NCBI GenBank assembly: GCA_021927905.1
Contig: BLLK01000049.1
Span: forward strand, 1 to 43,129
Direction: 5' to 3'
Length of the DNA stretch: 43,129 bases
DNA from: Chaetoceros tenuissimus
Lineage: Eukaryota > Bacillariophyta > Thalassiosirophyceae > Chaetocerotales > Chaetocerotaceae
The notes under the pieces are model-generated. The model did not search any database and was not told the DNA's origin. It saw only the letters and a program-made list of their open reading frames with translations. Both the position numbers and the translations under genes were made by a program. Each line of letters starts with the position of its first letter. The first letter of the stretch is position 1. Positions 1-22,883 of the stretch are shown here, piece by piece.

Positions 1-1
1 C

Positions 2-1033
2 TATGAGGGAATGAGACATGTCCTTGAAGCTTCACCTCAATTGAATTATATGGATTATCCTAACCAAATCCTTGATGGATCAATTTTATTAATGTACAAG
101 ACTATCCCACGTACAGGAGATGCAAGTACAGAGAGAGGATTTAGGAATATGATAATTTCTATGACTGGTGTACCTCAAGATGTTACCAGTCAAGATGATA
201 GAGATTATTTAGAAGAAGAATGTGAAAATTTGCAATATCTCTTTACCAAAGTTGTTCAAATTATTGCTGGAGATGAACCACTTCCAGTTGATCCAAATGA
301 AGAGATTGGAGATCTTACTGAGGCCATAATGGATGAAAATAATGCTATTAGTCAAGATGGAGGGATCACAATTGAAGTGCGTCAAGCTAGGATTGCTATC
401 TTTCAGCAAGCATCAAGTGTCAAGTACACAGAAACGTGGTGTGCAAGTATTGTGTATGCAATTTTTGAAGTAAGAAAGATATTTGAAAAGATTCGTAGAG
501 AAGGTGGTAGACGTAATGCAGGTTTGCAATATGTACGAGAGAGAGATGTGACAGAGGACAGTCCGATGTTAGATATGAGTGAAGAGGTTGCAAATTCATT
601 GACACATTTGTTTTCATTCTTGAGTAACAAGAATAAGATGCTTTCTCTATCAAGAATGTTGAATATTCATTGCTCTGATTTGAATAGGACAAAGAAGAAG
701 ACAGCTATTGATGTGTTGAATCGAATCTTGAATTGTTATGCAGCAAAATATCATGACATCTTTGTAGAGGGAGATGTGGCTTTGTATCGCTTGCAAGAAG
801 AAGTTGTTGATGAAGCAGCAGATGAATTTATCAATGAAGGGTTTGGTGTAGATGGTGATCAATCTCGAGATCAATTGCCAGTTGAGTCACAAGAGTATTT
901 GGATCAGCATGATATGGAAAGAGATCGCCGTTCAGCAATGACTACTAGAAATACAACTAGAATCTGGACAGAACGCGAAGAAGTGCAAGAGGATAATATT
1001 TTGCAACAAGAGTATTTGAATAGAAGGGATTAA
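2..1033 (+). CDS. C-terminal part of giant USP-linked protein (copy A, partial)
   Basis: The frame is open from the window edge (codons from base 2) to a TAA at 1031-1033 and equals the last 343 residues of the protein in copies B and C. The visible part is mostly predicted helix, rich in Glu, Asp, Arg and Gln, with no motif I recognise and no membrane segment. It belongs to the fourth exon of the gene. The Met at 11 is an internal residue, not a start, because the upstream codons match those before the same Met in copies B and C. Whether the missing upstream part is intact cannot be told from here. Confidence 0.7.
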   Translation, partial: YEGMRHVLEASPQLNYMDYPNQILDGSILLMYKTIPRTGDASTERGFRNMIISMTGVPQDVTSQDDRDYLEEECENLQYLFTKVVQIIAGDEPLPVDPNEEIGDLTEAIMDENNAISQDGGITIEVRQARIAIFQQASSVKYTETWCASIVYAIFEVRKIFEKIRREGGRRNAGLQYVRERDVTEDSPMLDMSEEVANSLTHLFSFLSNKNKMLSLSRMLNIHCSDLNRTKKKTAIDVLNRILNCYAAKYHDIFVEGDVALYRLQEEVVDEAADEFINEGFGVDGDQSRDQLPVESQEYLDQHDMERDRRSAMTTRNTTRIWTEREEVQEDNILQQEYLNRRD

Positions 1034-1366
1034 TACTACTTTGGTGAAAAGTTTATAATTTTTGAGTAAACATAATATAGTATGGAATAAGAGCATAGTC
1101 AAAATCATGGTTTCAAAAGCTACTTTTCATAGCAATAAATGTATATCATAAAGACAGTGAGGTGTGTCAACATAGTTTTTCAGTATGCTCAATGATATTC
1201 TTCAAAAAAATCCCCACTAAAAACAGTTTATGAAAACCTCAATTTTTACAAAAGACTTAGAGATTTTCAGAATAATGTGAAAAAATACAAGTCATGGGAA
1301 AAACTGAAAAATATTTGATGAATGCCAATTTCAATAGCAGAAATGAATTTGTCATGAAATTTAGAG

Positions 1367-1482
1367 TGGAATGGATAACCAACACTTATGGTATCACTTC
1401 TTGGAAAGAGGTGAAATTACAGATTATACCATTGTCATATGGTGCGAAATGAAAGTAGGGGTTCGATTCCCAACCATCCGCA
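1367..1482 (+). ncRNA. tRNA-like fold with perfect B box (copy A)
   Basis: A perfect RNA polymerase III B box, GGTTCGATTCC, sits at 1460-1470. Upstream in order are a possible acceptor strand (1367-1374, pairing with 1474-1480 with one bulged A), a 4-bp stem ACCA/TGGT (1378-1381 with 1389-1392), and a 7-bp stem TCACTTC/GAGGTGA (1394-1400 with 1408-1414) closing a 7-base loop TTGGAAA. If this is an anticodon loop the anticodon is GGA (Ser), with T at 33 and A at 37. A long variable region would suit a Ser-type tRNA. The D loop lacks GG, the T stem has only three good pairs, and the total is about 25 nt longer than a normal tRNA-Ser, so a degenerate tRNA, a tRNA-derived SINE piece or chance are all possible. 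Confidence 0.35.
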
Positions 1483-1602
1483 GTACTGTAAGTACGTACA
1501 GGAGACATAAAATGATGGTTTGGAGTTAAACAAAGAGATGTCCTATACAACAAAAGATGAAATTGTATGGTATGACCTCATAGAGGATCCTTGAGCTGTA
1601 GC

Positions 1603-2177
1603 TTGACTGACTTTCATTGTCTGGTCAAGAATACTAGAGAAATTCATACAATTGTCCCCCTGATTCTATGTAGTGTACTAAACTATGTACGTACAAGCCC
1701 AGTATGAGTGCCGTGTCCTACCAGTTGGAGTGTCATTGGGTATTTTGGACCTGTAGGGTACATGTAAGCTGTATCATGCCTAACATTCATTGTCTGGTCA
1801 AGAATACAAGAGAAAATCATACAAAGTTCCCCCGATTCCATATAATATGTTAAACTATGTACGTACAAGCCCAGTATGAGTGCAGTATCCTACCAGTTGG
1901 AGTGTCATTGGGTATTTTGGACCTATAGGGTGCATATGAGCTGTGTCATGCCTAATATTCATTGTCTGGTCAAGAATACAAGAGAAAATCATACAAAGGT
2001 CCCCCGATTCCATATAATATGTTAAACTATGTACGTACAAGCCCAGTATGAGTGCAGTATCCTACCAGTTGGAGTGTCATTGGGTATTTTGGACCTATAG
2101 GGTGCATATGAGCTATTTCATGCCTAACATTCATTGTCTGGTCAAGAATACAAGAGAAAATCATACAATAGTCCCCC
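1603..2177 (+). repeat. 172-bp tandem repeats in 3' region (copy A)
   Basis: The block beginning CATTGTCTGGTCAAGAATAC occurs at 1615, 1788, 1960 and 2132, giving spacings of 173, 172 and 172. Each unit also carries the 8-bp palindrome GTACGTAC and a run of C's before ATTCCATAT. About 3.3 units are present. Short minus-strand ORFs of 61 codons inside the units are by-products of the repeat. Confidence 0.85.
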
Positions 2178-2417
2178 AAACAGTAGAAAATGATCATGTT
2201 TTCATATCATACTGTCAATAAGAGTAATTTAGCCTAAATCAGAAATAGCCAATGACTGTCTATGATGATATCTTTGCGGGCCTATAGCATTGGATGTGGA
2301 TGGGGCCTCTAAAAACTAAAGATGGGCCCCTATTCAGCAGAAAATTCTCTATCTAGGCCATGTTTCAGATTGTTCATAGCTCAAAAATGATTTTGCAAAT
2401 AGCCATGGATGAGAATA

Positions 2418-2500
2418 CTAACCCTAACCCTAACCCTAACCCTAACCCTAACCCTAACCCTAACCCTAACCCTAACCCTAACCCTAACCCTAACCCTAAC
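2418..2500 (+). repeat. Interstitial telomeric repeat (CCCTAA)n, 83 bases
   Basis: Nearly 14 perfect copies of the CCCTAA hexamer, C-rich strand on +. This is the orientation of a telomere at the left end of a chromosome. It follows GATGAGAATA in the same phase as the runs at 13593 and 22682 but is longer than those (83 versus 29 bases). The sequence on its right is the start of copy B. Confidence 0.95.
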
Positions 2501-2700
2501 ATGTCATGACATCAAATGACATGGGACTGGCTCAAAACTTAGCTTGATGGATTTCATGGGATTGACTTGTCATGACATCAAATGACATGGGACTGGCTCA
2601 AAACTGAGCGAAATAGAGTGTCTTCAATAGAAAAATTAATGACATGTCATGACATCAGTTGACATGGGACTGGCTCAAAACTGAGCGAAATTAGAGTGTC
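2501..2700 (+). repeat. Three direct repeats with TGTCATGACA palindromes at 5' end of copy B
   Basis: A block of about 40-47 bp containing TGTCATGACATCA and TGACATGGGACTGGCTC occurs near 2501, 2566 and 2642. Each includes the perfect 10-bp palindrome TGTCATGACA, extended to the 12-bp ATGTCATGACAT in the first and third. The second and third share a further stretch, GAGCGAAAT plus GAGTGTCTT. The first begins immediately at the end of copy A's telomeric run. Confidence 0.8.
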
Positions 2701-2990
2701 TTTGTCCGAAAAATTCAACTGATGTCAAAGCAGCTAATATGGTAGTATAAATGGCCTATCAGAAGAATTTCTAGCTATTTAAATATAAATTTCAATTCAA
2801 CTGATTAATCCTATATAAATAAGTTTATATAGCTTCAGTTAATAGCCCATTAGCTGCTCAACTGATGCACAAATGGCCTGAACCTAGAGATCTGCAAAAA
2901 ATGTACAAATATTTTTCATTTTTTGTTCTTCAAAACAATTCATAAAAAAAGAAAGTGCAAATTGCAAAGACTTTGCTACAACAATTTAAA

Positions 2991-3416
2991 ATGAATTCTG
3001 AGAAAAAATATACAAGAGCTCAAGCATACATGGGAATGCACCTTACTAGGGAGGAAAAGAATGAAAGAAAGGAGCAGATGAAACTTTTGGGGGAGCTTAT
3101 TGAAATGAAACATGAATATGAGAGAGTTATTGCAATGAAAAGAAAATATGAGGAGGAATATGAACATTTTAAGTCATCTAAAAGAAGATTCAAACAGGAG
3201 GAGGATGATTTGAGTGATGTTACTGAGCAATCTGTAGAGGAAGCTGTTGTTGAAGCTTATCAGAAGAATCTAGTTACAAATATGGCAAAGGTTGCATCTA
3301 TTCAATTTCAGAATGGTAATGATGAAGTCAAAAGTCAGATTGCTGCAAAGGTTATTGATGAAAAGTTTGCAAAAGCTTTTACTGGTGCTTTATTTGAGAA
3401 ATTACTTGCAGAATAA
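2991..3416 (+). CDS. Small Lys/Glu-rich orphan protein of the unit (ORF1)
   Basis: A 141-residue ORF counted from the first ATG at 2991; the frame is open further upstream but has no earlier ATG. The first half is very rich in Lys, Glu, Arg and Met with heptad-like spacing, so a coiled coil is likely, and includes a basic patch (KSSKRRFK) that could be a nuclear signal. The second half is a less charged helical region ending FEKLLAE. I do not recognise a family. It is the first gene of copy B and is read in the same direction as the others, followed by 240 bp of AT-rich DNA. Copy C lacks this region and copy A is cut before it, so conservation of the frame cannot be tested here. Confidence 0.55.
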   Translation: MNSEKKYTRAQAYMGMHLTREEKNERKEQMKLLGELIEMKHEYERVIAMKRKYEEEYEHFKSSKRRFKQEEDDLSDVTEQSVEEAVVEAYQKNLVTNMAKVASIQFQNGNDEVKSQIAAKVIDEKFAKAFTGALFEKLLAE

Positions 3417-3855
3417 CTATTTAAAATCATCTAAAACAATGCTGGAATCAATTAAAACTGTATATTTAATTTTCGGACAAAATTCTACTAATTTAGCTCG
3501 AATTGACGTCGATGAAGGTCATTGGTATCAAAAATGAGTTTTTTTTTACAAATAATTAAGAGGCTGAATCTTTACACTTAGAGATCAGTTAGAGTTCTAA
3601 GTTTTTTGTGAGAGATCAGTTGAATTATAAATTTTCGATACGAACCGTTAGATGGCGGTTATATTGCAGCTAAAACGCTCTATTTTTGAAATAAAGATTA
3701 TTAAATGTTTAGAGATGAAGAACATTTCTGCAAGACTGGAAATGAAATTTTCAAGTAAAAGAAAGTTTCTTCCAGTGAGTTTTGCTCATAAATTTTCCTA
3801 TTGCATTTTTGCATCACAATACAAGTACCAAATACTACAAAAAAAGAGACTTAAG
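3417..3855 (+). other. Gap between ORF1 and ORF2 of copy B
   Basis: AT-rich spacer. It contains two copies of GAGATCAGTT (near 3581 and 3611), part of a wider set of TCAGTTGA/TCAACTGA motifs in the unit's non-coding DNA. The ORF2 frame is open back to an ATG at 3652, but the 68 codons from there to 3855 read as AT-rich non-coding DNA. Confidence 0.5.
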
Positions 3856-4842
3856 ATGGTATATGATCCTGTTCTATCTGTAGATAGACCAAGTAAAAGA
3901 GTGAAGCAAGTAGCAAGAAAGAAGACTGGTAGAGCTCCATCTAAAAACCAGAATGCAACAAGACTTCTGGTTAGAAGAAAACATCCTAGACTCCCATTCT
4001 CATATATTAAGAGATCAAGTAAGCAAGAGCTACCAGCAAAGAAGCCAGTGGACCCAGTAGTTGGTGCTGATGTAACTGATATTCTTATTAATGTAAAGAA
4101 GAATCAGTTTGAAGAGCTGTTGGGAAAGCATAAAGAAGAAAATGAATATATTCAAAAGATCATGGATAATATGCTGAATCAGCTGGACTCAGACTATGTG
4201 TATGATATATTTGAAGATGAAGGTAGATATGTATACAAGGGCAAAAAAGTTCATGATGAGTTTGAGGATAGTGATTGGGATGATAGTGATGATGAAGATG
4301 CTGTTGTTACATATGCAAAATATGAGCCATTGGCATGGTTTACTCCTGGTAGTCTCAAACAATGGAACAAGAATTATTATTTTTCAAGAAAGAGAGATAC
4401 ATTGTTTGCATTATCTCATGCATTGCATAAGTATTGGATGCTTAGATGTGAAAGAATGGAAGAAAGGAGAGGAATGACTTATTGGCATATTGAATATGAT
4501 AATGGGCTGGAGAATTTGTTGAGTTTGTTTGAGAACACAACTTTGAATTATGAATCAATTTCACTTTTAAAGCATCATGACATGATTGCATTCAAACCTG
4601 AATATAAGGTATTTGCTTCACCTGGATTTAGATTTGATCTTTATGCATTGATGGAGAAGTTGTCTTATAAACATGAAATGATGAAACAGCTTAAGGAACT
4701 GGAAGTAGAAATTGAAAGACTGGAGGAAGCATTGAATCAGAAGCTATCAGTGAGGCCAAGACCAACATTTCAAGAATCAAAAAGAGATGAAGGTTGGATT
4801 GGGAATTGCTTAGGGTTGGATGACTCTGATGATAGTGATTAA
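3856..4842 (+). CDS. Orphan protein with basic N-terminus, acidic patch and coiled coil (ORF2)
   Basis: 328 residues if translation starts at the ATG at 3856; an in-frame ATG at 3652 would add 68 residues of doubtful coding character. Residues about 10-60 are strongly basic, with Lys/Arg clusters suited to nuclear entry and nucleic-acid binding. An acidic stretch follows (DEFEDSDWDDSDDED), then a region rich in Trp, Tyr and Phe that looks like a folded domain, then a leucine-heptad coiled coil (LKELEVEIERLEEAL), and an acidic end (DDSDDSD). No family is recognised. The alternation of basic and acidic blocks recalls nuclear chromatin-associated proteins in general, but that is only an impression. 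The gene lies between ORF1 and the USP gene on the same strand. Confidence 0.6.
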   Translation: MVYDPVLSVDRPSKRVKQVARKKTGRAPSKNQNATRLLVRRKHPRLPFSYIKRSSKQELPAKKPVDPVVGADVTDILINVKKNQFEELLGKHKEENEYIQKIMDNMLNQLDSDYVYDIFEDEGRYVYKGKKVHDEFEDSDWDDSDDEDAVVTYAKYEPLAWFTPGSLKQWNKNYYFSRKRDTLFALSHALHKYWMLRCERMEERRGMTYWHIEYDNGLENLLSLFENTTLNYESISLLKHHDMIAFKPEYKVFASPGFRFDLYALMEKLSYKHEMMKQLKELEVEIERLEEALNQKLSVRPRPTFQESKRDEGWIGNCLGLDDSDDSD

Positions 4843-5280
4843 AGTGATGAGTTTATTTGTGTGTGTTTCTAAAAATTAATCTAAGTGGTATTTGTTAATA
4901 CATTCATATCAGTTGTAGTCATTGGATACAAAAACAATTGCATATGTGAAATCTTATATGTTTTAGAGATAGGAATGTATATAAATATTGTGCGCCAACT
5001 TTTATTGTCAGTTGAGATTTGAATATTTCGTTATGCTTTCATCAGTTGAGCAAAATTTTCATGTGGGAATGGATAGATTAGCTCTTATTTCCATAAGTTA
5101 CGAGGTATTTTGTAGATGTTCTGTTTATTTCAATCAGATTTGGTCATGACTCATATGGGAGTCAACATGAAATATTTGGAAAAGAACATGTTTTGACCAG
5201 TAGATCTGCTCATAAAAAAAGAATTGCCATTTTTGCATCACTTGTGAAAATATAAATCATACTGTTTATCATTCATATCA
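4843..5280 (+). promoter_or_regulatory. Probable promoter region of the USP gene (copy B)
   Basis: 438 bp, AT-rich, without a convincing ORF. TCAGTTG motifs occur near 4907, 5008 and 5042. This must hold the 3' end of ORF2's transcript and the start of the USP gene's transcript. No TATA box position can be named with confidence. Copy C lacks this region entirely. Confidence 0.4.
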
Positions 5281-8200
5281 ATGAAGAAGGATACTACTAC
5301 CTCCGCAGCACCAGCTGCATCTACCAACAATGTCTGGAAGCAAGTACCAGTACCAAAAGGGATTACCAAGTCAGCATTTGATAAGGATGACTTTCCAACT
5401 GTTATTGAAACATACAATGATGCTGGAAAGGTTATCTCTAACGACAAACCATTGTCATCATCTCAGCGTAAGGCAGGAACAGTTGCAAATCTCATGAAGT
5501 CATTCTATTCCATGTCAGTTGAGAAAACTGGTAAAAGAAAAGCAACTCCTAGTGACAAGTCTGACAAAAATACTATTGCCATAATCGAAGATATTATTGT
5601 AGCTAAGGTGGAAGATAGTCCGATCAAATCAGGTAAGATTGTTAGGATTTCTTTAAATGAATGATGATCTTTTTCTGAAAATAATATTCTCACTGATAAA
5701 TTATTGTCTTTTAGACATTGATACTGTTGTGCATACTCCTACTGGGGGTGATGAAGTAGCTTTGACAGGTGGAGTATCAAGTGAGTTAATTTATTTTATT
5801 TACATATGCCTCTTATCATTCATTTACTAATGATGTACTTTCCAAAAAAGGTTTGGCGAAAACATGGAGTGGTACAGGGAATCCTCCGGGACATTCCATG
5901 CATTCCGCAAATGATGGGGAACGGACTGAGAGAACACACCATGGTCAAGATAACAACTTGTCAAATGGAAACAACAATTCCAGTGATGAAAGTAGTGACG
6001 AGAGTGATGGTGATGATGAACCGCCAGCTCATAACTTTACTGAAAATCAACCATGTAATTTCAATGGAGGAACCAATAAGTGCTATGTGGTGGCAGTATT
6101 GCAATTATTGTTTGCATGTCCTTTGCTCATGAGAAGAATTTTAGCCTTGCGTAAGCGTATGCGAGATGTAGAACCAACCTCTCCTTGTCGTCTTACAGAT
6201 GAGTTACTTCGCCTTTGTTACCGAGGAGGTTCTACCTTTGGAAAGACTGATGAAAGGTTCTTATATCAAAACATAAGTGCAGTTGTGAATCATATTGTCA
6301 ATAAAGAGGAAATTGCACATAGTGGTTCATCTATGGCATCTACATCATTCAGATCAAAATGGAAAAGTAATGACCAGCAAGATGCTCGTGAGTTTCTATA
6401 AGTACTTCTTGAATATGTTCGCCAAGAATTGAGGTCAGCTGCTGTTGATGGTCAAGAAGATTTTGACTTACTGCAAATTGAGCAACATGTTATGTCTTAT
6501 TACACATGTCAAAAATGCTCAACTGATTGGCATAATAATCTCCGTCGTGAAGATATTGTTCATGTCCCAGTCAATAAAGAAAAATCAATACAACATGAAT
6601 ATGATGATCTTTACATTCCTATTGAGGTTGAGTTGACATGTCAAGTTTGTTGTAATGATGGTGTTCGAAAGGAAAATGTCAAAAAAAAAGATACGTTATA
6701 CAATGAATCGAGTACACTCATCCTTCATCAATTGAGATACAGTATGAATTATGAAACTGGAAAAGTTGAAAGAAACAATGCTTCTGTTCCAATTGAATTT
6801 GAACTAAATAGAAAAGACAAGAAATTAAAGTTGCGAGCAATCATCCGACATCATCCAAGTCGAATGAAAGGATTAGATTCGGGACATTATTGGGTGTTCC
6901 GCCGTGCTTATGGTATGAATGATAATATTTGGTATGTTGTCAATAATGAGAATGAGACAAGAATGATTGATATGAATGGTGATCAAGAGACATTTGATGA
7001 TCTACTCTTGTCAGAACATTCCTATGTGCTCATCTATGAAGAGGAAAGTAAAGATTCTGAGTTGTCGCAACATGAGAGAGCATACATTGAAAAACTTTCT
7101 CTGAACGATAAGTATTTTCCAAAAGAAAAGATTCAACCAACAAATCCATATCTTCTGAAACGTGAAAAGGAGAGAGAAGCTATGAAACATCGATACTTTG
7201 AAGCTAAGGATACTTCTGATAGGTTTCTTCAACGAATAATTGATCATCAAAAAAAGGATCTTATTCGTGTCAAGGGAAAACAATTTCTAGATAAAAAGAT
7301 TATTCAATCACAACAAAAGTGGAAGTCTGATGGTGAAATGAGAAATAAACTTGATCCAGATAGAACAAGATTTACAGAAGAAAAGTTCAAGGAAATAGGA
7401 AAGAATGAAGTTGGTAGAGAAATTCACAAAACTAAGCAACAAATGAGAAACAAGGAATTAGAATTAAGATCATTGGATCGAGGGATTACCAAAATGGTAA
7501 AGGATAGAGAAGAAAATCCTATTGCAGCAACAGAGAGAGCTCGAGCTGTCCTTGACGGAATAAAGCATCCAACGCGTCATATAGTTCCAAAAGCCAAACA
7601 GAAGAAAGATCTTTCTCCACTTGATTTAGCAAAGATGCGACAAAAGATACAAGATCCAAAAATTATGGATGCATCAATATTCGCAAGACACATACCAACA
7701 GGCCGTATGAGAGATAGAAATTATACTCATAGTCCTGGAGAGGATCTTCGTCGAAGATACAAGAATCAATACATGTCCATCCACCAAACCAAAAAGCAGC
7801 AACAGAAAGAAGCTAATCGGGAAGCACAAATAAAGAGACAAGGCCAGCTTACAAGGATTAGACGCATTTCAGAACATAAAAGAGAAGCTCCAGCAAGAGG
7901 AAGGCAAGTGAATATTTTTGCTAAGTCTGCACCAGCAAAAGCAGATCCAAAACCAAATTCTGAAAATGACACTACTACTGGGATTGGTGTTGCAACAGGT
8001 AATGATCCTCCACCGAGTGAAAATGGTTACTCTTCTCCGCAGAATGATGATATTATAGATAGAGGTCTTGATAGTCCAGCCACAATTCAAAGAGCTACAT
8101 CACAAGATATTTTCAACTTTGCACATCCGCATACTCCAAATGAATCAATATCTGATCTATCCAGAAAGAAAGATGATAAGAGTAAGAAGAAGAAAAGCAA

Positions 8201-11200
8201 AGATAAGGTTCCAAAAAAGGGGAAAAGCACTAACCCTAAGAAGGGTTCTAAGTCCAAGCAGCAATCTTTAATTCCTTTCCCTAAGAAGAAAGAAAAAACC
8301 CAAAAGGCAAATGAAGAACCAAGAGTTGAATTGAAAAGAACCCATCATGTAGATCAAAGACAGGATAGAGGTAATTCAGATGTTTCCTTGTTTTATGACT
8401 TGGGATTGTTTAATGATCCAGAGAAAGAGGAGATAGCAAAGAAGAAGGATGTAGAAGCAACCTCCGATGACATGACTGAAGCTGTGAGACAAGTGTCTGT
8501 GAAAAAACCAATTCTGAAATTGAACAAGAAATTGGTTGCTGAATCAAAAGAATCTAATGAAAAGAATGATACAGATGACAATATTATTGATTTGATTTCT
8601 AGTTCTTCTGAAGAAGAGGATAATGTAGAAGAAGATAAGACTGCTGTGGAGAAGAAGACTGCTGTTGAGAACCCGACCAATAATGAGAACCAGACTGATA
8701 ATGAGAATCAGACCGATAATGAGAAGAAGAATCCAGAACTTATTGATTTGTCTATTTTATCAAGTAGTGAAGATGAATCAGATAGGGTAAGCTAAAAAGA
8801 GCAGTTTCTATTATGTTCATCTTATTAAGTTGGAACAAACTAATTATTATTTCTTCCGGTCAGGGTTCTGATGTAATTATCGGTTACTGTACAAGTGTTC
8901 CCAATCAAGTAGTCGAAACTTCTCTCTTTGATAGACTTTTTACCAAGAATGAGCAGCAACTGCATATTATTCCAGAAGATGGTAGTGAGGTCAAAAGTCT
9001 TCTTACTGATCATGCACCAAAAGACCAAGATTCTGACTCTGATTATTCCATGTCTAGTAATGAAGATTCAGATGAGTCAGTTCAGAAAAATAATGAACAC
9101 CGAAGTGGTAACACACAAAGCAATGTTCCCGAAGCATTTGATACTAGCATGAGAGATGCAGATAGTATTGGTGATGGTTCTAATAATGATGCCAGTATCA
9201 ATGATCCCGATGAAGAAGTCTTGTGTGTAGGGCGACATAGACTAAAAATGCAATTTGATATCCATGATCAGGTAGATGTTGATGGTGTCAAAATCAACTT
9301 AGAGTTTACATCCAAATCATATGAAGATGCTAGAGAGAATTATTTCAATGATCCTAGTGTCGACACAGATGTAGAGGCTGAAAAATTGCAGTATTTGATT
9401 GCAAATCGAATGTTCTTCAATCTATTCACAATGAATTTCTTAAGTGTTTGTGGATCTGCCAGTGAGGTACAGCCATTGCAATCTTATACAACCATGGAAG
9501 ACTTGAAAGATAAGTACAGTGTCAAACGAGGGAATCGGCCAGTGAATAAGCAAGTCCCTAGTTATGTTGTGGGAGAAGAGTTGGTTGTCTGTCAAGGAAC
9601 AGTGGGTATATCAACTCATAATACATCAGTGGATACCCCAACAGGGTTATCATTAGAGGATCTGGAAGAGCATGCAGATACATTTGTTCCTAAACGATTT
9701 GTAAAATTCTTGAAGGTATATGGAAAACATCCTCATGCAGAGTTGTATAATAAGTGTATGCAGCAGAGACGAATCCTTGGTCCAAATTGTTTGAAGAAAA
9801 GTAACCTTACCTTTCGTGATGTCATGGTTGCACTTCTTGCAGCAAGACCAAGGTTTGTTTCTTTGACTATGCTTTTTGGTACAAGATCATATATCTTTCA
9901 AAAATGTGGAGCATATGATGGACTCATGGACTGGTTTGATGAAGTACCAGAAATTGACATGAAGAAGCGTCTTGTACGTATGGACTTGGCTTACACCATA
10001 CCAAATAAGCCAAATTCAATTTATCAGTGTTCCTCTACCATTGACGGCATTGATTACACTGGGATTCAGACGTATGAGGTTTTTCATAATCCTGTAAATG
10101 GTATTGGAAGATGCAATAAAATTTTCTACAATGAAAAAACACCACAAAGACAAAGGACTGGAAATGTGACATTGGAATTCCCTAATTTCTACAAGAGGGG
10201 ATCGGAAAGGGATATATCAAAGTTTAAGGTGTATCTCACAAGAGCTCATTTGGTAAAACAATATTCTCATTTCAGTGGTCAATACAATTTGAGAGAAAAA
10301 ATAAAAGATCTTACAGTACGTCAAGCTCAGGTTATGATATCAACCCTTGAAAAGTGCTTTCTTGAACAAATGGAGTACCTGCGTGAACATGGTGACGACA
10401 TACGTATGGAAGCTACCATTGTTTCTGTATATCCACATGCCGATGATGCAGATGTAAGGAATATTCAACTCAAGGATCGGCATAAATTTAGAACCATTAC
10501 AGATTGGGAAGAAGCGTGGCTTGAAAATTTAGAATGGGCTGTGTCTTCCTTTAATCAACAATTATTCAATGTTGCGATAGAATATGTTGGTTCGCCAGAT
10601 GATTATGTTGTTGGATTTTACCATGCATTACAACTAATGAGGATTGAATTGAAAAAAAGAAGCATCACAAAGTTATCAGACTTGGAACCAAAGAATACAA
10701 TTCTTTATTACTTGGCATATCTCATGTCTGTATTGAGAGGATATGCTGGAGTTGCAGGAACGAGGCATGGACAAGCCTATAGAGAATTTATTATTGATCC
10801 GCCCTATGGAACCTATTACGACCCTAGTGGGATCACATACCTATTACATCAGGAAGCTATGGATCTTGCCAGTGAGCCAGGTATTCTCATTGACCAAATA
10901 TTTCATGTCCCAACTGAACTAGGTGAAACATTATTGATGCATAAAATTGCCTATGAGTTAATCTTGTCATACAATGAGGAAACACGTGTAGGATACGAAG
11001 AACTAGTAGCCACCTACAGTGATAGAACAAGAAGTGAGCAAGAACGGTCAAGGGCACATCAAATGATGACTGTACGTTTGAAGGAAGTGTTAGAAACCCG
11101 ACAATACCTTTTGTTGCGAGCAATGAATACTAGTGTTTATGTTCCAGATCAAAGGCGACATGAACTTACCAAGTACTATGAGGGAATGAGACATGTCCTT

Positions 11201-12208: not shown

Positions 12209-12541
12209 TACTACTTTGGTGAAAAGTTTATAATTTTTGAGTAAACATAATATAGTATGGAATAAGAGCATAGTCAAAATCATGGTTTCAAAAGCTACTT
12301 TTCATAGCAATAAATGTATATCATAAAGACAGTGAGGTGTGTCAACATAGTTTTTCAGTATGCTCAATGATATTCTTCAAAAAAATCCCCACTAAAAACA
12401 GTTTATGAAAACCTCAATTTTTACAAAAGACTTAGAGATTTTCAGAATAATGTGAAAAAATACAAGTCATGGGAAAAACTGAAAAATATTTGATGAATGC
12501 CAATTTCAATAGCAGAAATGAATTTGTCATGAAATTTAGAG

Positions 12542-12657
12542 TGGAATGGATAACCAACACTTATGGTATCACTTCTTGGAAAGAGGTGAAATTACAGATT
12601 ATACCATTGTCATATGGTGCGAAATGAAAGTAGGGGTTCGATTCCCAACCATCCGCA
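12542..12657 (+). ncRNA. tRNA-like fold with perfect B box (copy B)
   Basis: Identical in sequence to the fold at 1367-1482: B box GGTTCGATTCC at 12635-12645 and the 7-bp stem with 7-base loop TTGGAAA. See that entry for pairings and doubts. Confidence 0.35.
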
Positions 12658-12777
12658 GTACTGTAAGTACGTACAGGAGACATAAAATGATGGTTTGGAG
12701 TTAAACAAAGAGATGTCCTATACAACAAAAGATGAAATTGTATGGTATGACCTCATAGAGGATCCTTGAGCTGTAGC

Positions 12778-13352
12778 TTGACTGACTTTCATTGTCTGGT
12801 CAAGAATACTAGAGAAATTCATACAATTGTCCCCCTGATTCTATGTAGTGTACTAAACTATGTACGTACAAGCCCAGTATGAGTGCCGTGTCCTACCAGT
12901 TGGAGTGTCATTGGGTATTTTGGACCTGTAGGGTACATGTAAGCTGTATCATGCCTAACATTCATTGTCAGGTCAAGAATACAAGAGAAAATCATACAAA
13001 GTTCCCCCGATTCCATATAATATGTTAAACTATGTACGTACAAGCCCAGTATGAGTGCCGTATCCTACCAGTTGAAGTGTCATTGGGTATTTTGGACCTA
13101 TAGGGTGCATATGAGCTGTGTCATGCCTAATATTCATTGTCTGGTCAAGAATACAAGAGAAAATCATACAAAGGTCCCCCGATTCCATATAATATGTTAA
13201 ACTATGTACGTACAAGCCCAGTATGAGTGCAGTATCCTACCAGTTGGAGTGTCATTGGGTATTTTGGACCTATAGGGTGCATATGAGCTATTTCATGCCT
13301 AACATTCATTGTCTGGTCAAGAATACAAGAGAAAATCATACAATAGTCCCCC
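12778..13352 (+). repeat. 172-bp tandem repeats in 3' region (copy B)
   Basis: Same 3.3-unit array as in copy A, shifted by 11175, with GTACGTAC in each unit and a few private substitutions. Confidence 0.85.
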
Positions 13353-13592
13353 AAACAGTAGAAAATGATCATGTTTTCATATCATACTGTCAATAAGAGT
13401 AATTTAGCCTAAATCAGAAATAGCCAATGACTGTCTATGATGATATCTTTGCGGGCCTATAGCATTGGATGTGGATGGGGCCTCTAAAAACTAAAGATGG
13501 GCCCCTATTCAGCAGAAAATTCTCTATCTAGGCCATGTTTCAGATTGTTCATAGCTCAAAAATGATTTTGCAAATAGCCATGGATGAGAATA

Positions 13593-13621
13593 CTAACCCT
13601 AACCCTAACCCTAACCCTAAC
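13593..13621 (+). repeat. Interstitial telomeric repeat (CCCTAA)n, 29 bases
   Basis: Nearly five hexamers in the same phase and orientation as at 2418. The right flank changes abruptly to TTGCAGATTTGG, unrelated to the flanks of the other two runs. Confidence 0.95.
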
Positions 13622-14694
13622 TTGCAGATTTGGATTTGCAAAATTATACTTGCAGATTTTCATTTACAAAATTGTACTTGCAGATTTGGATTTGCAGATT
13701 TTCATTTACAAAATTGTACTTGCAGATTTGGATTTGCAAAATTGTACTTGCACCTTTATACTTCAAAAATTTGATTTGTAAAATTGTACTTGCAGCTTTT
13801 TATTCACAAAATTGTACTTGCAGATTTTTACTTCAAAATTTATACTTACAAAATTATACTTGCTTTTTTGTACTTCAAAAGTTGTATTTGCTCAATTGTG
13901 CTTACAGATTTTCATTTACAAAATTGTACTTGCAGATTTGTACTTCAAAAATTGTACTTGTAGATTTAAACTTTAAAAATTTGATTTGTGAAATTGTACA
14001 TGCAGATTTTTATTTCAAAAATTTGTACCTGCAAAATCATATTCATAGCATAATACTTGTGAATTTGTACCTGGTAAATCTTACTTATAGCAATATACCT
14101 GTAAAATTGGTAACAGAAGCCCTAACCATGGTGATTAAATTTGTTTTCAAATGATTAGAGCTTGGTAACAAAAAATGTTATGTCAGAAATTGCGCCCTAA
14201 TTCAATGACAACATGTTTTCCCTTTACATAAAATGGATTTTTTTTAGACAGCACTTTTGTGTTCTCAGTTAGAACAGGGGAAATAATCAGGATATTCACA
14301 AATAACACCCTGAGAAATTTATAAATACAAAATGAATTGGAAAATTTGATTGTAGTCCTCTTCTGGTTTGTGCTAGTCCAAAGAAATTTACAAATACAAA
14401 ATAAATTGGAAAAAATTGAATATAGTCCTCTTCTGGTTTGTGCTAGTATTAATCAATTCTAACAAAAATTTTACTTGTAATAGGGGATTTGTAGAAATTA
14501 CCTAAAAGAATTTTCTTGTAAAGATGTGCTTTTAGAAATAAAAATTATTGTATTTGCAAAATTGTACTTGCAAAATTGTACTTGCAAAATTGTACTTGCA
14601 AAATTGTACTTGCAAAATTGTACTTGTGAGAAGTACAATTTTAAAATTGTAGGTGCAAACCCCATACTGATTGGTATATGTTCAAATTACACTT
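13622..14694 (+). repeat. AT-rich short-repeat block between copies B and C
   Basis: About 500 bp of degenerate repeats built on AAATTGTACTTGCAGATTT (13622-14110) are followed by a roughly 70-bp direct repeat near 14316-14385 and 14386-14455 (both ending CCTCTTCTGGTTTGTGCTAG), and then five perfect 15-bp units TTGCAAAATTGTACT (about 14552-14629). The last unit folds back: 14614-14625 pairs perfectly with 14631-14642 over 12 bp with loop GTGAG, and 14634-14651 is an 18-bp perfect palindrome. The block does not occur in copies A or B. An open frame of 174 codons inside it is repeat-derived and not called a gene. Confidence 0.8.
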
Positions 14695-17600
14695 AGGTGG
14701 AAGATAGTCCGATCAAATCAGGTAAGATTGTTAGGATTTCTTTAGATGAATGATGATCTTTTTCTGAAAATAATATTCTCACTGATAAATTATTGTCTTT
14801 TAGACATTGATACTGTTGTGCATACTCCTACTGGGGGTGATGAAGTAGCTTTGACAGGTGGAGTATCAAGTGAGTTAATTTATTTTATTTACATATGCCT
14901 CTTATCATTCATTTACTAATGATGTACTTTCCAAAAAAGGTTTGGCGAAAACATGGAGTGGTACAGGGAATCCTCCGGGACATTCCATGCATTCCGCAAA
15001 TGATGGGGAACGGACTGAGAGAACACACCATGGTCAAGATAACAACTTGTCAAATGGAAACAACAATTCCAGTGAAGAAAGTAGTGACGAGAGTGATGGT
15101 GATGATGAACCGCCAGCTCATAACTTTACTGAAAATCAACCATGTAATTTCAATGGAGGAACCAATAAGTGCTATGTGGTGGCGGTATTGCAATTATTGT
15201 TTGCATGTCCTTTGCTCATGAGAAGAATTTTAGCCTTGCGTAAGCGTATGCGAGATGTAGAACCAACCTCTCCTTGTCGTCTTACAGATGAGTTACTTCG
15301 CCTTTGTTACCGAGGAGGTTCTACCTTTGGAAAGACTGATGAAAGGTTCTTATATCAAAACATAAGTGCAGTTGTGAATCATATTGTCAATAAAGAGGAA
15401 ATTGCACATAGTGGTTCATCTATGGCATCTACATCATTCAGATCAAAATGGAAAAGTAATGACCAGCAAGATGCTCGTGAGTTTCTACAAGTACTTCTTG
15501 AATATGTTCGCCAAGAATTGAGGTCAGCTGCTGTTGATGGTCAAGAAGATTTTGACTTACTGCAAATTGAGCAACATGTTATGTCTTATTACACATGTCA
15601 AAAATGCTCAACTGATTGGCATAATAATCTCCGTCGTGAAGATATTGTTCATGTCCCAGTCAATAAAGAAAAATCAATACAACATGAATATGATGATCTT
15701 TACATTCCTATTGAGGTTGAGTTGACATGTCAAGTTTGTTGTAATGATGGTGTTCGAAAGGAAAATGTCAAAAAAAAAGATACGTTATACAATGAATCGA
15801 GTACACTCATCCTTCATCAATTGAGATACAGTATGAATTATGAAACTGGAAAAGTTGAAAGAAACAATGCTTCTGTTCCAATTGAATTTGAACTAAATAG
15901 AAAAGACAAGAAATTAAAGTTGCGAGCAATCATTCGACATCATCCAAGTCGAGGTAAAGGATTAGATTCGGGACATTATTGGGTGTTCCGCCGTGCTTAT
16001 GGTATGAATGATAATATTTGGTATGTTGTCAATAATGAGAATGAGACAAGAATGATTGATATGAATGGTGATCAAGAGACATTTGATGATCTACTCTTGT
16101 CAGAACATTCCTATGTGCTCATCTATGAAGAGGAAAGTAAAGATTCTGAGTTGTCGCAACATGAGAGAGCATACATTGAAAAACTTTCTCTGAACGATAA
16201 GTATTTTCCAAAAGAAAAGATTCAACCAACAAATCCATATCTTCTGAAACGTGAAAAGGAGAGAGAAGCTATGAAACATCGATACTTTGAAGCTAAGGAT
16301 ACTTCTGATAGGTTTCTTCAACGAATAATTGATCATCAAAAAAAGGATCTTATTCGTGTCAAGGGAAAACAATTTCTAGATAAAAAGATTATTCAATCAC
16401 AACAAAAGTGGAAGTCTGATGGTGAAATGAGAAATAAACTTGATCCAGATAGAACAAGATTTACAGAAGAAAAGTTCAAGGAAATAGGAAAGAATGAAGT
16501 TGGTAGAGAAATTCACAAAACTAAGCAACAAATGAGAAACAAGGAATTAGAATTAAGATCATTGGATCGAGGGATTACCAAAATGGTAAAGGATAGAGAA
16601 GAAAATCCTATTGCAGCAACAGAGAGAGCTCGAGCTGTCCTTGACGGAATAAAGCATCCAACGCGTCATATAGTTCCAAAAGCCAAACAGAAGAAAGATC
16701 TTTCTCCACTTGATTTAGCAAAGATGCGACAAAAGATACAAGATCCAAAAATTATGGATGCATCAATATTCGCAAGACACATACCAACAGGCCGTATGAG
16801 AGATAGAAATTATACTCATAGTCCTGGAGAGGATCTTCGTCGAAGATACAAGAATCAATACATGTCCATCCACCAAACCAAAAAGCAGCAACAGAAAGAA
16901 GCTAATCGGGAAGCACAAATAAAGAGACAAGGCCAGCTTACAAGGATTAGACGCATTTCAGAACATAAAAGAGAAGCTCCAGCAAGAGGAAGGCAAGTGA
17001 ATATTTTTGCTAAGTCTGCACCAGCAAAAGCAGATCCAAAACCAAATTCTGAAAATGACACTACTACTGGGATTGGTGTTGCAACAGGTAATGATCCTCC
17101 ACCGAGTGAAAATGGTTACTCTTCTCCGCAGAATGATGATATTATAGATAGAGGTCTTGATAGTCCAGCCACAATTCAAAGAGCTACATCACAAGATATT
17201 TTCAACTTTGCACATCCGCATACTCCAAATGAATCAATATCTGATCTATCCAGAAAGAAAGATGATAAGAGTAAGAAGAAGAAAAGCAAAGATAAGGTTC
17301 CAAAAAAGGGGAAAAGCACTAACCCTAAGAAGGGTTCTAAGTCCAAGCAGCAATCTTTAATTCCTTTCCCTAAGAAGAAAGAAAAAACCCAAAAGGCAAA
17401 TGAAGAACCAAGAGTTGAATTGAAAAGAACCCATCATGTAGATCAAAGACAGGATAGAGGTAATTCAGATGTTTCCTTGTTTTATGACTTGGGATTGTTT
17501 AATGATCCAGAGAAAGAGGAGATAGCAAAGAAGAAGGATGTAGAAGCAACCTCCGATGACATGACTGAAGCTGTGAGACAAGTGTCTGTGAAAAAACCAA

Positions 17601-20600
17601 TTCTGAAATTGAACAAGAAATTGGTTGCTGAATCAAAAGAATCTAATGAAAAGAATGATACAGATGACAATATTATTGATTTGATTTCTAGTTCTTCTGA
17701 AGAAGAGGATAATGTAGAAGAAGATAAGACTGCTGTGGAGAAGAAGACTGCTGTTGAGAACCCGACCAATAATGAGAACCAGACTGATAATGAGAATCAG
17801 ACCGATAATGAGAAGAAGAATCCAGAACTTATTGATTTGTCTATTTTATCAAGTAGTGAAGATGAATCAGATAGGGTAAGCTAAAAAGAGCAGTTTCTAT
17901 TATGTTCATCTTATTAAGTTGGAACAAACTAATTATTATTTCTTCCGGTCAGGGTTCTGATGTAATTATCGGTTACTGTACAAGTGTTCCCAATCAAGTA
18001 GTCGAAACTTCTCTCTTTGATAGACTTTTTACCAAGAATGAGCAGCAACTGCATATTATTCCAGAAGATGGTAGTGAGGTCAAAAGTCTTCTTACTGATC
18101 ATGCACCAAAAGACCAAGATTCTGACTCTGATTATTCCATGTCTAGTAATGAAGATTCAGATGAGTCAGTTCAGAAAAATAATGAACACCGAAGTGGTAA
18201 CACACAAAGCAATGTTCCCGAAGCATTTGATACTAGCATGAGAGATGCAGATAGTATTGGTGATGGTTCTAATAATGATGCCAGTATCAATGATCCCGAT
18301 GAAGAAGTCTTGTGTGTAGGGCGACATAGACTAAAAATGCAATTTGATATCCATGATCAGGTAGATGTTGATGGTGTCAAAATCAACTTAGAGTTTACAT
18401 CCAAATCATATGAAGATGCTAGAGAGAATTATTTCAATGATCCTAGTGTCGACACAGATGTAGAGGCTGAAAAATTGCAGTATTTGATTGCAAATCGAAT
18501 GTTCTTCAATCTATTCACAATGAATTTCTTAAGTGTTTGTGGATCTGCCAGTGAGGTACAGCCATTGCAATCTTATACAACCATGGAAGACTTGAAAGAT
18601 AAGTACAGTGTCAAACGAGGGAATCGGCCAGTGAATAAGCAAGTCCCTAGTTATGTTGTGGGAGAAGAGTTGGTTGTCTGTCAAGGAACAGTGGGTATAT
18701 CAACTCATAATACATCAGTGGATACCCCAACAGGGTTATCATTAGAGGATCTGGAAGAGCATGCAGATACATTTGTTCCTAAACGATTTGTAAAATTCTT
18801 GAAGGTATATGGAAAACATCCTCATGCAGAGTTGTATAATAAGTGTATGCAGCAGAGACGAATCCTTGGTCCAAATTGTTTGAAGAAAAGTAACCTTACC
18901 TTTCGTGATGTCATGGTTGCACTTCTTGCAGCAAGACCAAGGTTTGTTTCTTTGACTATGCTTTTTGGTACAAGATCATATATCTTTCAAAAATGTGGAG
19001 CATATGATGGACTCATGGACTGGTTTGATGAAGTACCAGAAATTGACATGAAGAAGCGTCTTGTACGTATGGACTTGGCTTACACCATACCAAATAAGCC
19101 AAATTCAATTTATCAGTGTTCCTCTACCATTGACGGCATTGATTACACTGGGATTCAGACGTATGAGGTTTTTCATAATCCTGTAAATGGTATTGGAAGA
19201 TGCAATAAAATTTTCTACAATGAAAAAACACCACAAAGACAAAGGACTGGAAATGTGACATTGGAATTCCCTAATTTCTACAAGAGGGGATCGGAAAGGG
19301 ATATATCAAAGTTTAAGGTGTATCTCACAAGAGCTCATTTGGTAAAACAATATTCTCATTTCAGTGGTCAATACAATTTGAGAGAAAAAATAAAAGATCT
19401 TACAGTACGTCAAGCTCAGGTTATGATATCAACCCTTGAAAAGTGCTTTCTTGAACAAATGGAGTACCTGCGTGAACATGGTGACGACATACGTATGGAA
19501 GCTACCATTGTTTCTGTATATCCACATGCCGATGATGCAGATGTAAGGAATATTCAACTCAAGGATCGGCATAAATTTAGAACCATTACAGATTGGGAAG
19601 AAGCGTGGCTTGAAAATTTAGAATGGGCTGTGTCTTCCTTTAATCAACAATTATTCAATGTTGCGATAGAATATGTTGGTTCGCCAGATGATTATGTTGT
19701 TGGATTTTACCATGCATTACAACTAATGAGGATTGAATTGAAAAAAAGAAGCATCACAAAGTTATCAGACTTGGAACCAAAGAATACAATTCTTTATTAC
19801 TTGGCATATCTCATGTCTGTATTGAGAGGATATGCTGGAGTTGCAGGAACGAGGCATGGACAAGCCTATAGAGAATTTATTATTGATCCGCCCTATGGAA
19901 CCTATTACGACCCTAGTGGGATCACATACCTATTACATCAGGAAGCTATGGATCTTGCCAGTGAGCCAGGTATTCTCATTGACCAAATATTTCATGTCCC
20001 AACTGAACTAGGTGAAACATTATTGATGCATAAAATTGCCTATGAGTTAATCTTGTCATACAATGAGGAAACACGTGTAGGATACGAAGAACTAGTAGCC
20101 ACCTACAGTGATAGAACAAGAAGTGAGCAAGAACGGTCAAGGGCACATCAAATGATGACTGTACGTTTGAAGGAAGTGTTAGAAACCCGACAATACCTTT
20201 TGTTGCGAGCAATGAATACTAGTGTTTATGTTCCAGATCAAAGGCGACATGAACTTACCAAGTACTATGAGGGAATGAGACATGTCCTTGAAGCTTCACC
20301 TCAATTGAATTATATGGATTATCCTAACCAAATCCTTGATGGATCAATTTTATTAATGTACAAGACTATCCCACGTACAGGAGATGCAAGTACAGAGAGA
20401 GGATTTAGGAATATGATAATTTCTATGACTGGTGTACCTCAAGATGTTACCAGTCAAGATGATAGAGATTATTTAGAAGAAGAATGTGAAAATTTGCAAT
20501 ATCTCTTTACCAAAGTTGTTCAAATTATTGCTGGAGATGAACCACTTCCAGTTGATCCAAATGAAGAGATTGGAGATCTTACTGAGGCCATAATGGATGA

Positions 20601-21297
20601 AAATAATGCTATTAGTCAAGATGGAGGGATCACAATTGAAGTGCGTCAAGCTAGGATTGCTATCTTTCAGCAAGCATCAAGTGTCAAGTACACAGAAACG
20701 TGGTGTGCAAGTATTGTGTATGCAATTTTGGAAGTAAGAAAGATATTTGAAAAGATTCGTAGAGAAGGTGGTAGACGTAATGCAGGTTTGCAATATGTAC
20801 GAGAGAGAGATGTGACAGAGGACAGTCCGATGTTAGATATGAGTGAAGAGGTTGCAAATTCATTGACACATTTGTTTTCATTCTTGAGTAACAAGAATAA
20901 GATGCTTTCTCTATCAAGAATGTTGAATATTCATTGCTCTGATTTGAATAGGACAAAGAAGAAGACAGCTATTGATGTGTTGAATCGAATCTTGAATTGT
21001 TATGCAGCAAAATATCATGACATCTTTGTAGAGGGAGATGTGGCTTTGTATCGCTTGCAAGAAGAAGTTGTTGATGAAGCAGCAGATGAATTTATCAATG
21101 AAGGGTTTGGTGTAGATGGTGATCAATCTCGAGATCAATTGCCAGTTGAGTCACAAGAGTATTTGGATCAGCATGATATGGAAAGAGATCGCCGTTCAGC
21201 AATGACTACTAGAAATACAACTAGAATCTGGACAGAACGCGAAGAAGTGCAAGAGGATAATATTTTGCAACAAGAGTATTTGAATAGAAGGGATTAA
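14695..21297 (+). pseudogene. Giant USP-fusion gene lacking start and most of exon 1, otherwise open (copy C)
   Basis: Exon pieces: 14695-14721, 14804-14869, 14940-17875 and 17953-21297. From exon 1's remnant to the TAA at 21295-21297 the spliced frame has no stop, so the USP domain is complete: Cys box with NKCYVV, DQQDAREF with the CAA codon at 15488-15490 that is TAA in copy B, both CxxC pairs, and SRGKGLDSGHYW. The native start and promoter are missing. An internal ATG could still give a protein with the USP domain, or the flanking repeat could supply a new promoter, but neither is shown. Compared with copy B there are only a handful of coding changes, including Glu for Asp in the acidic N-terminal region. 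The protein would be nuclear or cytosolic judging by its charged linkers; substrates are unknown. Confidence 0.65.
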
Positions 21298-21630
21298 TAC
21301 TACTTTGGTGAAAAGTTTATAATTTTTGAGTAAACATAATATAGTATGGAATAAGAGCATAGTCAAAATCATGGTTTCAAAAGCTACTTTTCATAGCAAT
21401 AAATGTATATCATAAAGACAGTGAGGTGTGTCAACATAGTTTTTCAGTATGCTCAATGATATTCTTCAAAAAAATCCCCACTAAAAACAGTTTATGAAAA
21501 CCTCAATTTTTACAAAAGACTTAGAGATTTTCAGAATAATGTGAAAAAATACAAGTCATGGGAAAAACTGAAAAATATTTGATGAATGCCAATTTCAATA
21601 GCAGAAATGAATTTGTCATGAAATTTAGAG

Positions 21631-21746
21631 TGGAATGGATAACCAACACTTATGGTATCACTTCTTGGAAAGAGGTGAAATTACAGATTATACCATTGTC
21701 ATATGGTGCGAAATGAAAGTAGGGGTTCGATTCCCAACCATCCGCA
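21631..21746 (+). ncRNA. tRNA-like fold with perfect B box (copy C)
   Basis: Identical to the folds in copies A and B; B box at 21724-21734. The absence of any substitution is in line with the general near-identity of the copies and is not by itself evidence of constraint. Confidence 0.35.
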
Positions 21747-21866
21747 GTACTGTAAGTACGTACAGGAGACATAAAATGATGGTTTGGAGTTAAACAAAGA
21801 GATGTCCTATACAACAAAAGATGAAATTGTATGGTATGACCTCATAGAGGATCCTTGAGCTGTAGC

Positions 21867-22441
21867 TTGACTGACTTTCATTGTCTGGTCAAGAATACTA
21901 GAGAAATTCATACAATTGTCCCCCTGATTCTATGTAGTGTACTAAACTATGTACGTACAAGCCCAGTATGAGTGCCGTGTCCTACCAGTTGGAGTGTCAT
22001 TGGGTATTTTGGACCTGTAGGGTACATGTAAGCTGTATCATGCCTAACATTCATTGTCTGGTCAAGAATACAAGAGAAAATCATACAAAGTTCCCCCGAT
22101 TCCATATAATATGTTAAACTATGTACGTACAAGCCCAGTATGAGTGCCGTATCCTACCAGTTGGAGTGTCATTGGGTATTTTGGACCTATAGGGTGCATA
22201 TGAGCTGTGTCATGCCTAATATTCATTGTCTGGTCAAGAATACAAGAGAAAATCATACAAAGGTCCCCCGATTCCATATAATATGTTAAACTATGTACGT
22301 ACAAGCCCAGTATGAGTGCAGTATCCTACCAGTTGGAGTGTCATTGGGTATTTTGGACCTATAGGGTGCATATGAGCTATGTCATGCCTAACATTCATTG
22401 TCTGGTCAAGAATACAAGAGAAAATCATACAATAGTCCCCC
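21867..22441 (+). repeat. 172-bp tandem repeats in 3' region (copy C)
   Basis: Same 3.3-unit array as in copies A and B, with GTACGTAC in each unit. Confidence 0.85.
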
Positions 22442-22681
22442 AAACAGTAGAAAATGATCATGTTTTCATATCATACTGTCAATAAGAGTAATTTAGCCTA
22501 AATAAGAAATAGCCAATGACTGTCTATGATGATATCTTTGCGGGCCTATAGCATTGGATGTGGATGGGGCCTCTAAAAACTAAAGATGGGCCCCTATTCA
22601 GCAGAAAATTCTCTATCTAGGCCATGTTTCAGATTGTTCATAGCTCAAAAATGATTTTGCAAATAGCCATGGATGAGAATA

Positions 22682-22710
22682 CTAACCCTAACCCTAACCC
22701 TAACCCTAAC
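22682..22710 (+). repeat. Interstitial telomeric repeat (CCCTAA)n, 29 bases
   Basis: The run nearest the chromosome body. Same phase, orientation and length as at 13593. Its right flank is GGTCTTAACTTTTT, a third unrelated sequence. Confidence 0.95.
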
Positions 22711-22883
22711 GGTCTTAACTTTTTATATTAATTTTCTGTTATTAATTTTCTGTTGTTAATTTTCTGTTGTTAATTTTCTGTTGTTAATTTTCTGTTGTTA
22801 ATTTTCTGTTGTTAATTTTCTGCTGTTATCTTTCTGCTGTTATAATTTCTGTACTTTTTTGGTTCATGTCCAAAATTCTATTA
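22711..22883 (+). repeat. 14-bp tandem repeat and short spacer
   Basis: Seven or so copies of TTAATTTTCTGTTG, degenerating to TTATCTTTCTGCTG near 22830, followed by about 30 bases of spacer before the large satellite. Confidence 0.85.

Follow-up and report, generated by a model that had tools for sequence, protein, structure and literature searches.

At the left end of contig BLLK01000049.1 (herein C36; 390,835 bases) of the diatom Chaetoceros tenuissimus lies a head-to-tail array of a gene-bearing element whose copies all end, on their 3′ side, in telomere repeats. We favour the reading, to which we give a probability of roughly 55%, that the element is mobile, occurs solely at contig (and probably chromosome) ends, spreads by attachment to exposed telomere-capped or broken tips, and relies on a polymerase acting in trans. 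The observations behind this reading are a 3′ border that does not vary and carries 12 nt or more of C-rich repeat, a 3′ end that points inward, 5′ ends that are cut at different points and in three cases capped by the tract of the next copy, ten differing flanks, and closest relatives on different contigs. The stretch of DNA analysed (the window, 43,129 nucleotides) comprises positions 1–43129 of C36, and its start is the start of the contig. The assembly amounts to 41.03 Mb in 68 contigs, the ends of which are incomplete and stand in here for chromosome ends.

A Fixed Telomeric 3′ Border at Contig Ends

The initial annotation of this DNA had described three copies in the same orientation that share a telomeric 3′ border and differ to the right of it, a description that is confirmed at 2418–2500 ((CTAACC)n, 83 nt), 13593–13621 (29 nt) and 22682–22710 (29 nt), where each tract is directly preceded by AGCCATGGATGAGAATA and followed by a differing sequence, and that is borne out on five contigs. 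A telomere-repeat 18-mer occurs 15 times in the window versus 0 times in 100 shuffles. As that annotation had proposed, we listed the right border of every genome-wide match to a probe consisting of the 323-bp 3′ end of the element. All 10 candidate matches were scored (three on C36, two each on C55, C39, and C15, and one on C34), and the border is telomeric in all of them: in the border comparison, each of the ten reads GATGAGAATA followed immediately by CTAACCCTAACC, in the same phase, with perfect tracts of 83, 29, 29, 94, 17, 53, 41, 15, 36, and 12 nt (the 36-nt tract, on C15, resumes after a one-base slip and the 12-nt tract belongs to the C34 copy). The right, or inner, flanks at these borders are ten different sequences. 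Every copy lies no more than 23 kb from a contig end with its 3′ end facing inward: nine copies occupy left ends and read along the plus strand, and the C34 copy occupies a right end and reads along the minus strand. The other contigs concerned measure 15,833 bases (C55), 13,957 bases (C15), 4.46 Mb (C34), and 460 kb (C39, which begins with 2,500 N).

The tracts also tend to stop in one register, with a final CCCTAAC in 7 of 10, which recurs at two of four contig-terminal telomeres (C28 and C27, not C13 and C42); in this small sample, the shared stop fits old telomerase-made tips. The telomere tracts at the tips of C13, C28, C27, and C42 are without a match to the 3′ probe.

Truncated 5′ Ends, Arrays, and Relatedness of Copies

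Copy 2 (2501–13592, plus strand, 11.1 kb) is the longest and, taken together with its tract (2501–13621), serves as the unit to which truncation positions and identities refer. Copy 1 (1–2417, plus strand) extends from unit position 8676 to the 3′ end and is 99.8% identical to the unit with no gaps; its distal part is missing as the contig starts inside it, and hence the first of the three copies initially counted is present but cut by the window start. Copy 3 (14692–22681, plus strand) is 5′-truncated at about unit position 3103, inside exon 1 of the main gene described below. The array of units in the initial annotation is retained with an amended layout, in which the third unit has its element part only from about 14692 onward, preceded by other DNA at 13622–14691. 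The 3′ noncoding region includes 3.4 copies of a 172-bp repeat (21856–22441 on the plus strand in copy 3, and likewise 1592–2177 and 12767–13352).

Four 5′ truncation points were measured and all are different, namely unit positions 3103 (C36), 5903 (C39), 7862 (C55), and 9424 (C15). On C39, C55, and C15 no more than 1–2 nt separate the truncation point from the tract of the copy lying next outward, and on C36 there is 1.07 kb of other DNA between the truncation and the outer tract. On all five contigs, the outermost copy reaches the contig start or a run of N. Because window positions 2501–5280 have a single match in the assembly, the true 5′ end of the element is undefined. The start of C15 falls within 2 nt of the truncation point of its inner copy (C15:1–3349, L005), and C15 suggests a collapsed, homogeneous 1,682-bp tandem array.

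Comparison of the last 1,640 bp of the copies indicates that the closest relatives are often on different contigs: there are 0 differences between C36 copy 2 and the C34 copy and between C55 copy 1 and C15 copy 2, and copies of the same array differ at 2–4 positions. The two C39 copies form a diverged subfamily (98.4–99.0% identical to the unit), with 2 differences from each other and 16–22 from the other eight copies. Among those eight, one pair of sites (1017 and 1339) has all four combinations, the four-gamete pattern; both sites fall within the 172-bp repeats, and the pattern could therefore stem from recombination, from conversion between repeats, from template switching, from recurrent change, or from chimeric assembly.

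A Conserved Gene with a Ubiquitin-Specific Protease Domain

Open reading frames (ORFs) 3 and 4 prove to be a single four-exon gene that encodes a ubiquitin-specific protease (USP) domain and a large domain, and two small ORFs are found only in copy 2. The main gene of copy 2 comprises exons 5281–5632, 5715–5780, 5851–8786, and 8864–12208 (plus strand) with GT-AG introns and about 2,232 codons, and its best exon models carry a single stop codon, which lies in exon 3. In copy 3, exon 3 (14940–17875, plus strand) is free of stops, but this copy is without the gene start; among the copies seen, none is both complete and open. The exon 3 product of copy 3 contains the USP domain (UCH, PF00443, E 2.1e-18), together with the Cys-box motif and the His-box motif of such proteases, at residues 74–78 and 344–347, respectively, of P0003 (exon 3). 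Exon 4 (17953–21297 in copy 3, plus strand) encodes a 1,114-aa domain without a family match in Pfam (E ≤ 10), NCBIfam, or PHROGs (both E ≤ 1), thresholds that apply to all family searches with the four element proteins.

Exon 4 is open in all five long copies. Between the C36/C55 copies and the C39 copies, the ratio of replacement to synonymous substitution rates (dN/dS) is 0.21–0.26 (e.g., 15.5 changes were synonymous and 12.5 were replacements; p is about 1e-4 in a one-sided binomial test that counts 13 of 28 changes as replacement), and on these substitution counts the large domain is under purifying selection. The introns are kept as well, intron 3 in five of five covering copies and introns 1 and 2 in two of two.

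Relatives of both domains were sought in several databases. For the large domain, the PDB gave one match, at E 0.85, and phage records gave no match; for the USP protein there were 0 PDB matches at E ≤ 0.01, and the only matches in the genome at E ≤ 0.001 were the element's own copies. Searches of viral contigs with both proteins confirmed no relative. An AlphaFold model of the large domain, made from the single window sequence, has a mean predicted local distance difference test (pLDDT) score of 33. Weak Pfam matches such as TrmO_C, Gp-FAR-1, and T6SS_VasJ were discarded as below the curated cut-off. The two small ORFs lie upstream of the main gene on the plus strand; the shorter (141 aa, 2991–3416) is a candidate member of the element, the longer (374 aa, 3718–4842) has one match in the assembly, and weak NCBIfam and PHROG matches of the two were discarded.

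A Proposed Route of Attachment to Chromosome Ends and Its Rivals

We hypothesize that an unspliced element transcript would end in CUAACCCUAACC, and that this tail would pair with the G-rich 3′ overhang of a short telomere, the 3′-OH of which would then prime copying of the element RNA. Copying may stop early, or the end may erode, in which case telomerase would re-cap the truncated copy, and repeated rounds could build head-to-tail arrays. The polymerase would act in trans because no reverse transcriptase (RT) was found in the element, and it could be either a host retroelement enzyme (LINE-like RTs are present, as read by eye) or telomerase (TERT is present); the conserved protein with its deubiquitinase and large domain might serve as an RNA-binding or end-targeting partner, as Gag does for HeT-A. 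Whereas the borders, truncations, and flanks are observed, we infer the RNA step and the enzyme. Attachment to ends accounts for the fixed inner border with its telomere complement, for outer ends that are truncated and capped anew, for the arrays, and for the ten differing flanks. Publications on terminons and Athena give the same account (PMC6431247 and PMC5537684), and the one given for FoTeRs is similar (PMC12857005). The initial annotation had proposed a discrete element that inserts into telomeres; the data uphold a unit whose 3′ border is precise and telomeric and whose flanks vary, but truncation of the outer ends, the uniform polarity, and the inner position of the fixed tract make attachment to chromosome ends a better description than insertion into telomeres.

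A related and rather improbable possibility is that element RNA ending in CUAACCCUAACC, which we take to be the kind of sequence that serves as a telomerase RNA template and to resemble the human template, is copied onto tips by TERT itself or by a telomerase-bound complex, aided by the deubiquitinase-large-domain protein. If this were true, the element would be a selfish element, free of an RT of its own, that lives on the host telomere machinery.

Several results weigh against end-attachment with a polymerase in trans. No RT family is found in the four element proteins at the thresholds given, the full 5′ extent being undefined; nor is there an RT-bearing element with the same 3′ end, as all 10 probe matches have the main gene upstream. 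At least 75 RVT_1 matches are listed in the genome, and 16 loci covering 17 of them, with frames assigned by eye, contain LINE-like families, Gypsy- and DIRS-like elements, and TERT (one locus, L029, has no frame of 120 aa; TERT is on C48, with Telomerase_RBD at E 2.7e-31), and three further matches, on C23, were judged by eye to be Gypsy. Among these 17 of at least 75 matches and the three on C23, none was recognised as a Penelope-type RT, although such an RT may still exist in the genome. Only 2 GIY-YIG matches occur in the genome, on contigs without a listed RVT_1 match. No hammerhead was found in window 1–28500 (0 Rfam matches at E ≤ 1), and no CTGANGA core is present on either strand of the last 1.6 kb. 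A predicted 3′ hairpin from which the telomeric tail would hang free does not outperform shuffled sequences (z −0.7 to −1.2). Only one copy reaches 5′ of unit position 3103, and the retained introns and the four-gamete pattern fit DNA recombination too. The element proteins are likewise without a transposase or integrase family in Pfam, NCBIfam, and PHROGs, which upholds the initial statement that none of these enzymes, RT included, is recognisable. Among the Pfam matches of the four proteins there is no Gag or zinc-knuckle family, although a diverged one could be missed. No tRNA genes were found; a T-arm-like stretch seen by eye in the 3′ region was dropped as it failed a stem test on copy 2.

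The strongest competitor, which we hold to be possible but unlikely, is recombination of the kind that spreads yeast Y′ elements, in which a short tip invades an internal tract beside a resident copy and break-induced replication (BIR) copies all that is distal, with no RNA or RT involved and with truncations arising from later breakage and telomerase healing. This route yields a tract-bounded inner border, uniform polarity, tract-separated arrays, and retained introns, agrees with the four-gamete pattern, the homogeneous-looking C15 tandem, and the lack of an RT in the element, and has a precedent in yeast, where short TG1-3 tracts separate the Y′ units of an array and a short telomere can acquire Y′ by way of TG-repeat recombination and BIR (PMC4222662, in excerpt). 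It fares less well with the two ends of the element: all 10 copies have a fixed inner end, and truncation affects the outer end, whereas TelKO and Y′ degenerate on the inner and not the distal side (PMC12408736, in excerpt). None of the four measured outer junctions is common to two contigs (a further five are unseen), the tract on C34 has no more than 12 nt, and a 23-nt stub of block X2 (described below) would be hard to make by BIR. Because a fixed inner end and a truncated outer end are the reverse of Y′ and TelKO, we favour end-attachment over this route, without proof. The initial suggestion of a passenger whose enzyme is supplied elsewhere fits best, with Y′-like recombination still its rival.

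It is doubtful that the element is the 3′ part of a terminon-like, RT-bearing retroelement whose RT lies further 5′ and has been lost from every assembled copy. All copies but one are 5′-truncated or cut by a contig start or gap, the 5′ end is undefined, and terminons can reach 40 kb; yet the RT units of terminons are 3′-terminal fragments (PMC6431247, in excerpt, for both points), and the 3′-most domain of the element matches no RT. Furthermore, among the matches listed, C36 has a single RVT_1 match, at 381 kb, and the surroundings of the copies on C55, C39, C15, and C34 have none. A static, nonmobile subtelomeric gene family, spread by duplication of ends with new telomeres formed at breaks, would suit the location, the high identity, and a gene under selection, but duplicated ends should share inner flanks, and all ten differ even though the 3′ borders agree base for base, which makes this explanation very improbable. 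We give least credence to collapse or misjoining of telomeric repeats during assembly. Such an artefact would suit the position of every copy close to a contig end, the run of N at the start of C39, the small size of C55 and C15 (15.8 and 14.0 kb), and the repeat boundary at which C15 starts, but the element is present with different flanks on five contigs (including C34, C39, and C36), with distinct junctions and a diverged C39 subfamily.

Comparison with Known Telomere-Associated Elements

Intron retention marks Penelope-like elements as a group, and the introns of the present element are likewise kept. The Athena Penelope-like elements and the terminons of bdelloid rotifers also resemble it: their 3′ end carries the telomere repeat in reverse complement, they attach to G-rich tips and are truncated at the 5′ end, they form head-to-tail arrays, and they have several ORFs (PMC6431247, in excerpt), so that the architecture, which the initial annotation had regarded as possibly of a new kind, is known from these retroelements. 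The shared features are found here at 10 of 10 borders (3′ repeats), in the arrays (with truncation measurable in 4 of 10 copies), and in the introns. Unlike Athena and terminons, the element has no RT, hammerhead, or GIY-YIG that we could find and does have a ubiquitin protease, and every terminon unit reportedly contains an RT (PMC5537684, in excerpt). HeT-A of Drosophila is similar in being without an RT, added to chromosome ends with the 3′ end inward, arranged in head-to-tail arrays, and dependent on an RT from elsewhere (PMC5537684, in excerpt). In contrast to HeT-A, the genome has TERT and telomere repeats, the tail of the element is a telomere repeat rather than poly(A), and neither a Gag family nor an RT-bearing partner that shares the 3′ end was found (10 of 10 probe matches are the element itself, in an assembly with incomplete ends). 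Given the missing RT and hammerhead on the one side and the missing Gag and partner on the other, we assign the element to neither.

Yeast Y′ elements bear genes without an RT and encode a helicase; no helicase family was found in the four element proteins (Pfam), and the variable end of the element is the outer rather than the inner one. MoTeR2 of Magnaporthe is reportedly RT-less and shares its ends with the RT-bearing MoTeR1, and no such partner was found for the element. What Y′ does share with it are subtelomeric arrays separated by short telomere tracts (PMC4222662, in excerpt). The telomeric retrotransposons FoTeR, of Fusarium, and MoTeR have their 5′ end tipward and a TAACCC tract at the 3′ side, and truncated FoTeR copies are more common than full ones; FoTeRs, however, encode RT and REL domains, neither of which was found here (PMC12857005, in excerpt).

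The open-licence titles and abstract openings that were listed describe neither a ubiquitin protease on a telomere-attached element nor any such element from a diatom, and a conserved deubiquitinase on a tip-attached element is thus without precedent in that body of text; Burro is a giant mobile element with ubiquitin-related domains (PMC6431247, in excerpt). Tip-attaching elements link mobile DNA to the origin of telomerase, and an element that combines the hallmark 3′ telomere tail and truncated arrays with no visible polymerase, in a genome with TERT, makes the choice between a foreign RT, telomerase, and recombination as its copier directly testable.

A Distant Relative and Other Blocks at Contig Ends

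A homologue of the large domain of exon 4 is encoded on C23 (34% identical), with an intron at the corresponding place. No USP match is near it in the 22.2 kb of C23 that were read, and the relative therefore looks 5′-truncated. Its 3′ end reads TATTAACCCTA and is joined through TTAACCCTA to a Gypsy element broken within its RT, while two other copies of that stretch on C23 continue past the junction point, an arrangement that counts in favour of end-attachment; the relative is a single copy, and its own 3′ end is without independent definition.

Two further blocks, X1 and X2, occur within the array and elsewhere. X1 (13622–14691) is partly 14/28-bp-periodic DNA that ends in TACACTTAGG, its last bases overlapping the start of copy 3, and X2 (22711–22885) consists of a 14-bp minisatellite plus TTCATGTCCAAAATTCTATTAGG, joined to a 239-bp satellite. 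Both have precise 3′ ends, X1 at 2 places and X2 (from TTCATGTCCAAA to CTATTAGG or A) at 5 places with at most 3 mismatches; the sites are window 13622–14697 and 22711–22885, C42:351036 and 352954, C23:48154–48193, and C43:488164. A minisatellite of 14-bp period is often found upstream of these blocks. Three X2 copies are read with TTAGG and have differing inner flanks, and X2 on C23 consists of only the 3′-terminal 23 nt, resembling a 5′-truncation product, which likewise favours end-attachment. X1 and X2 look like further chromosome-end attachments.

Degenerate minisatellites of 14-bp period also start directly at the terminal telomere tract, or no more than 16 nt from it, at C13:1–348 (L007) and at the right end of C42 (L010:7003–7617). 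On C28 (C28:1–3746, L008) the terminal tract sits directly on a Copia-type frame (by eye) whose start is cut, an apparent healed break. A lone interstitial TTAGGG run of 30 nt is present at C36:83032–83061 (L011:1033–1062), where no 3′ probe match is listed. The inner flank of the C34 copy gives no evidence of a broken repeat, as its first 111 nt matched only itself (40 of 66 candidates scored). Finally, the 239-bp satellite fills window positions 22884–27435 with 19 copies at 98%, and the same satellite sequence starts directly after a telomere tract on C39, from 12742.

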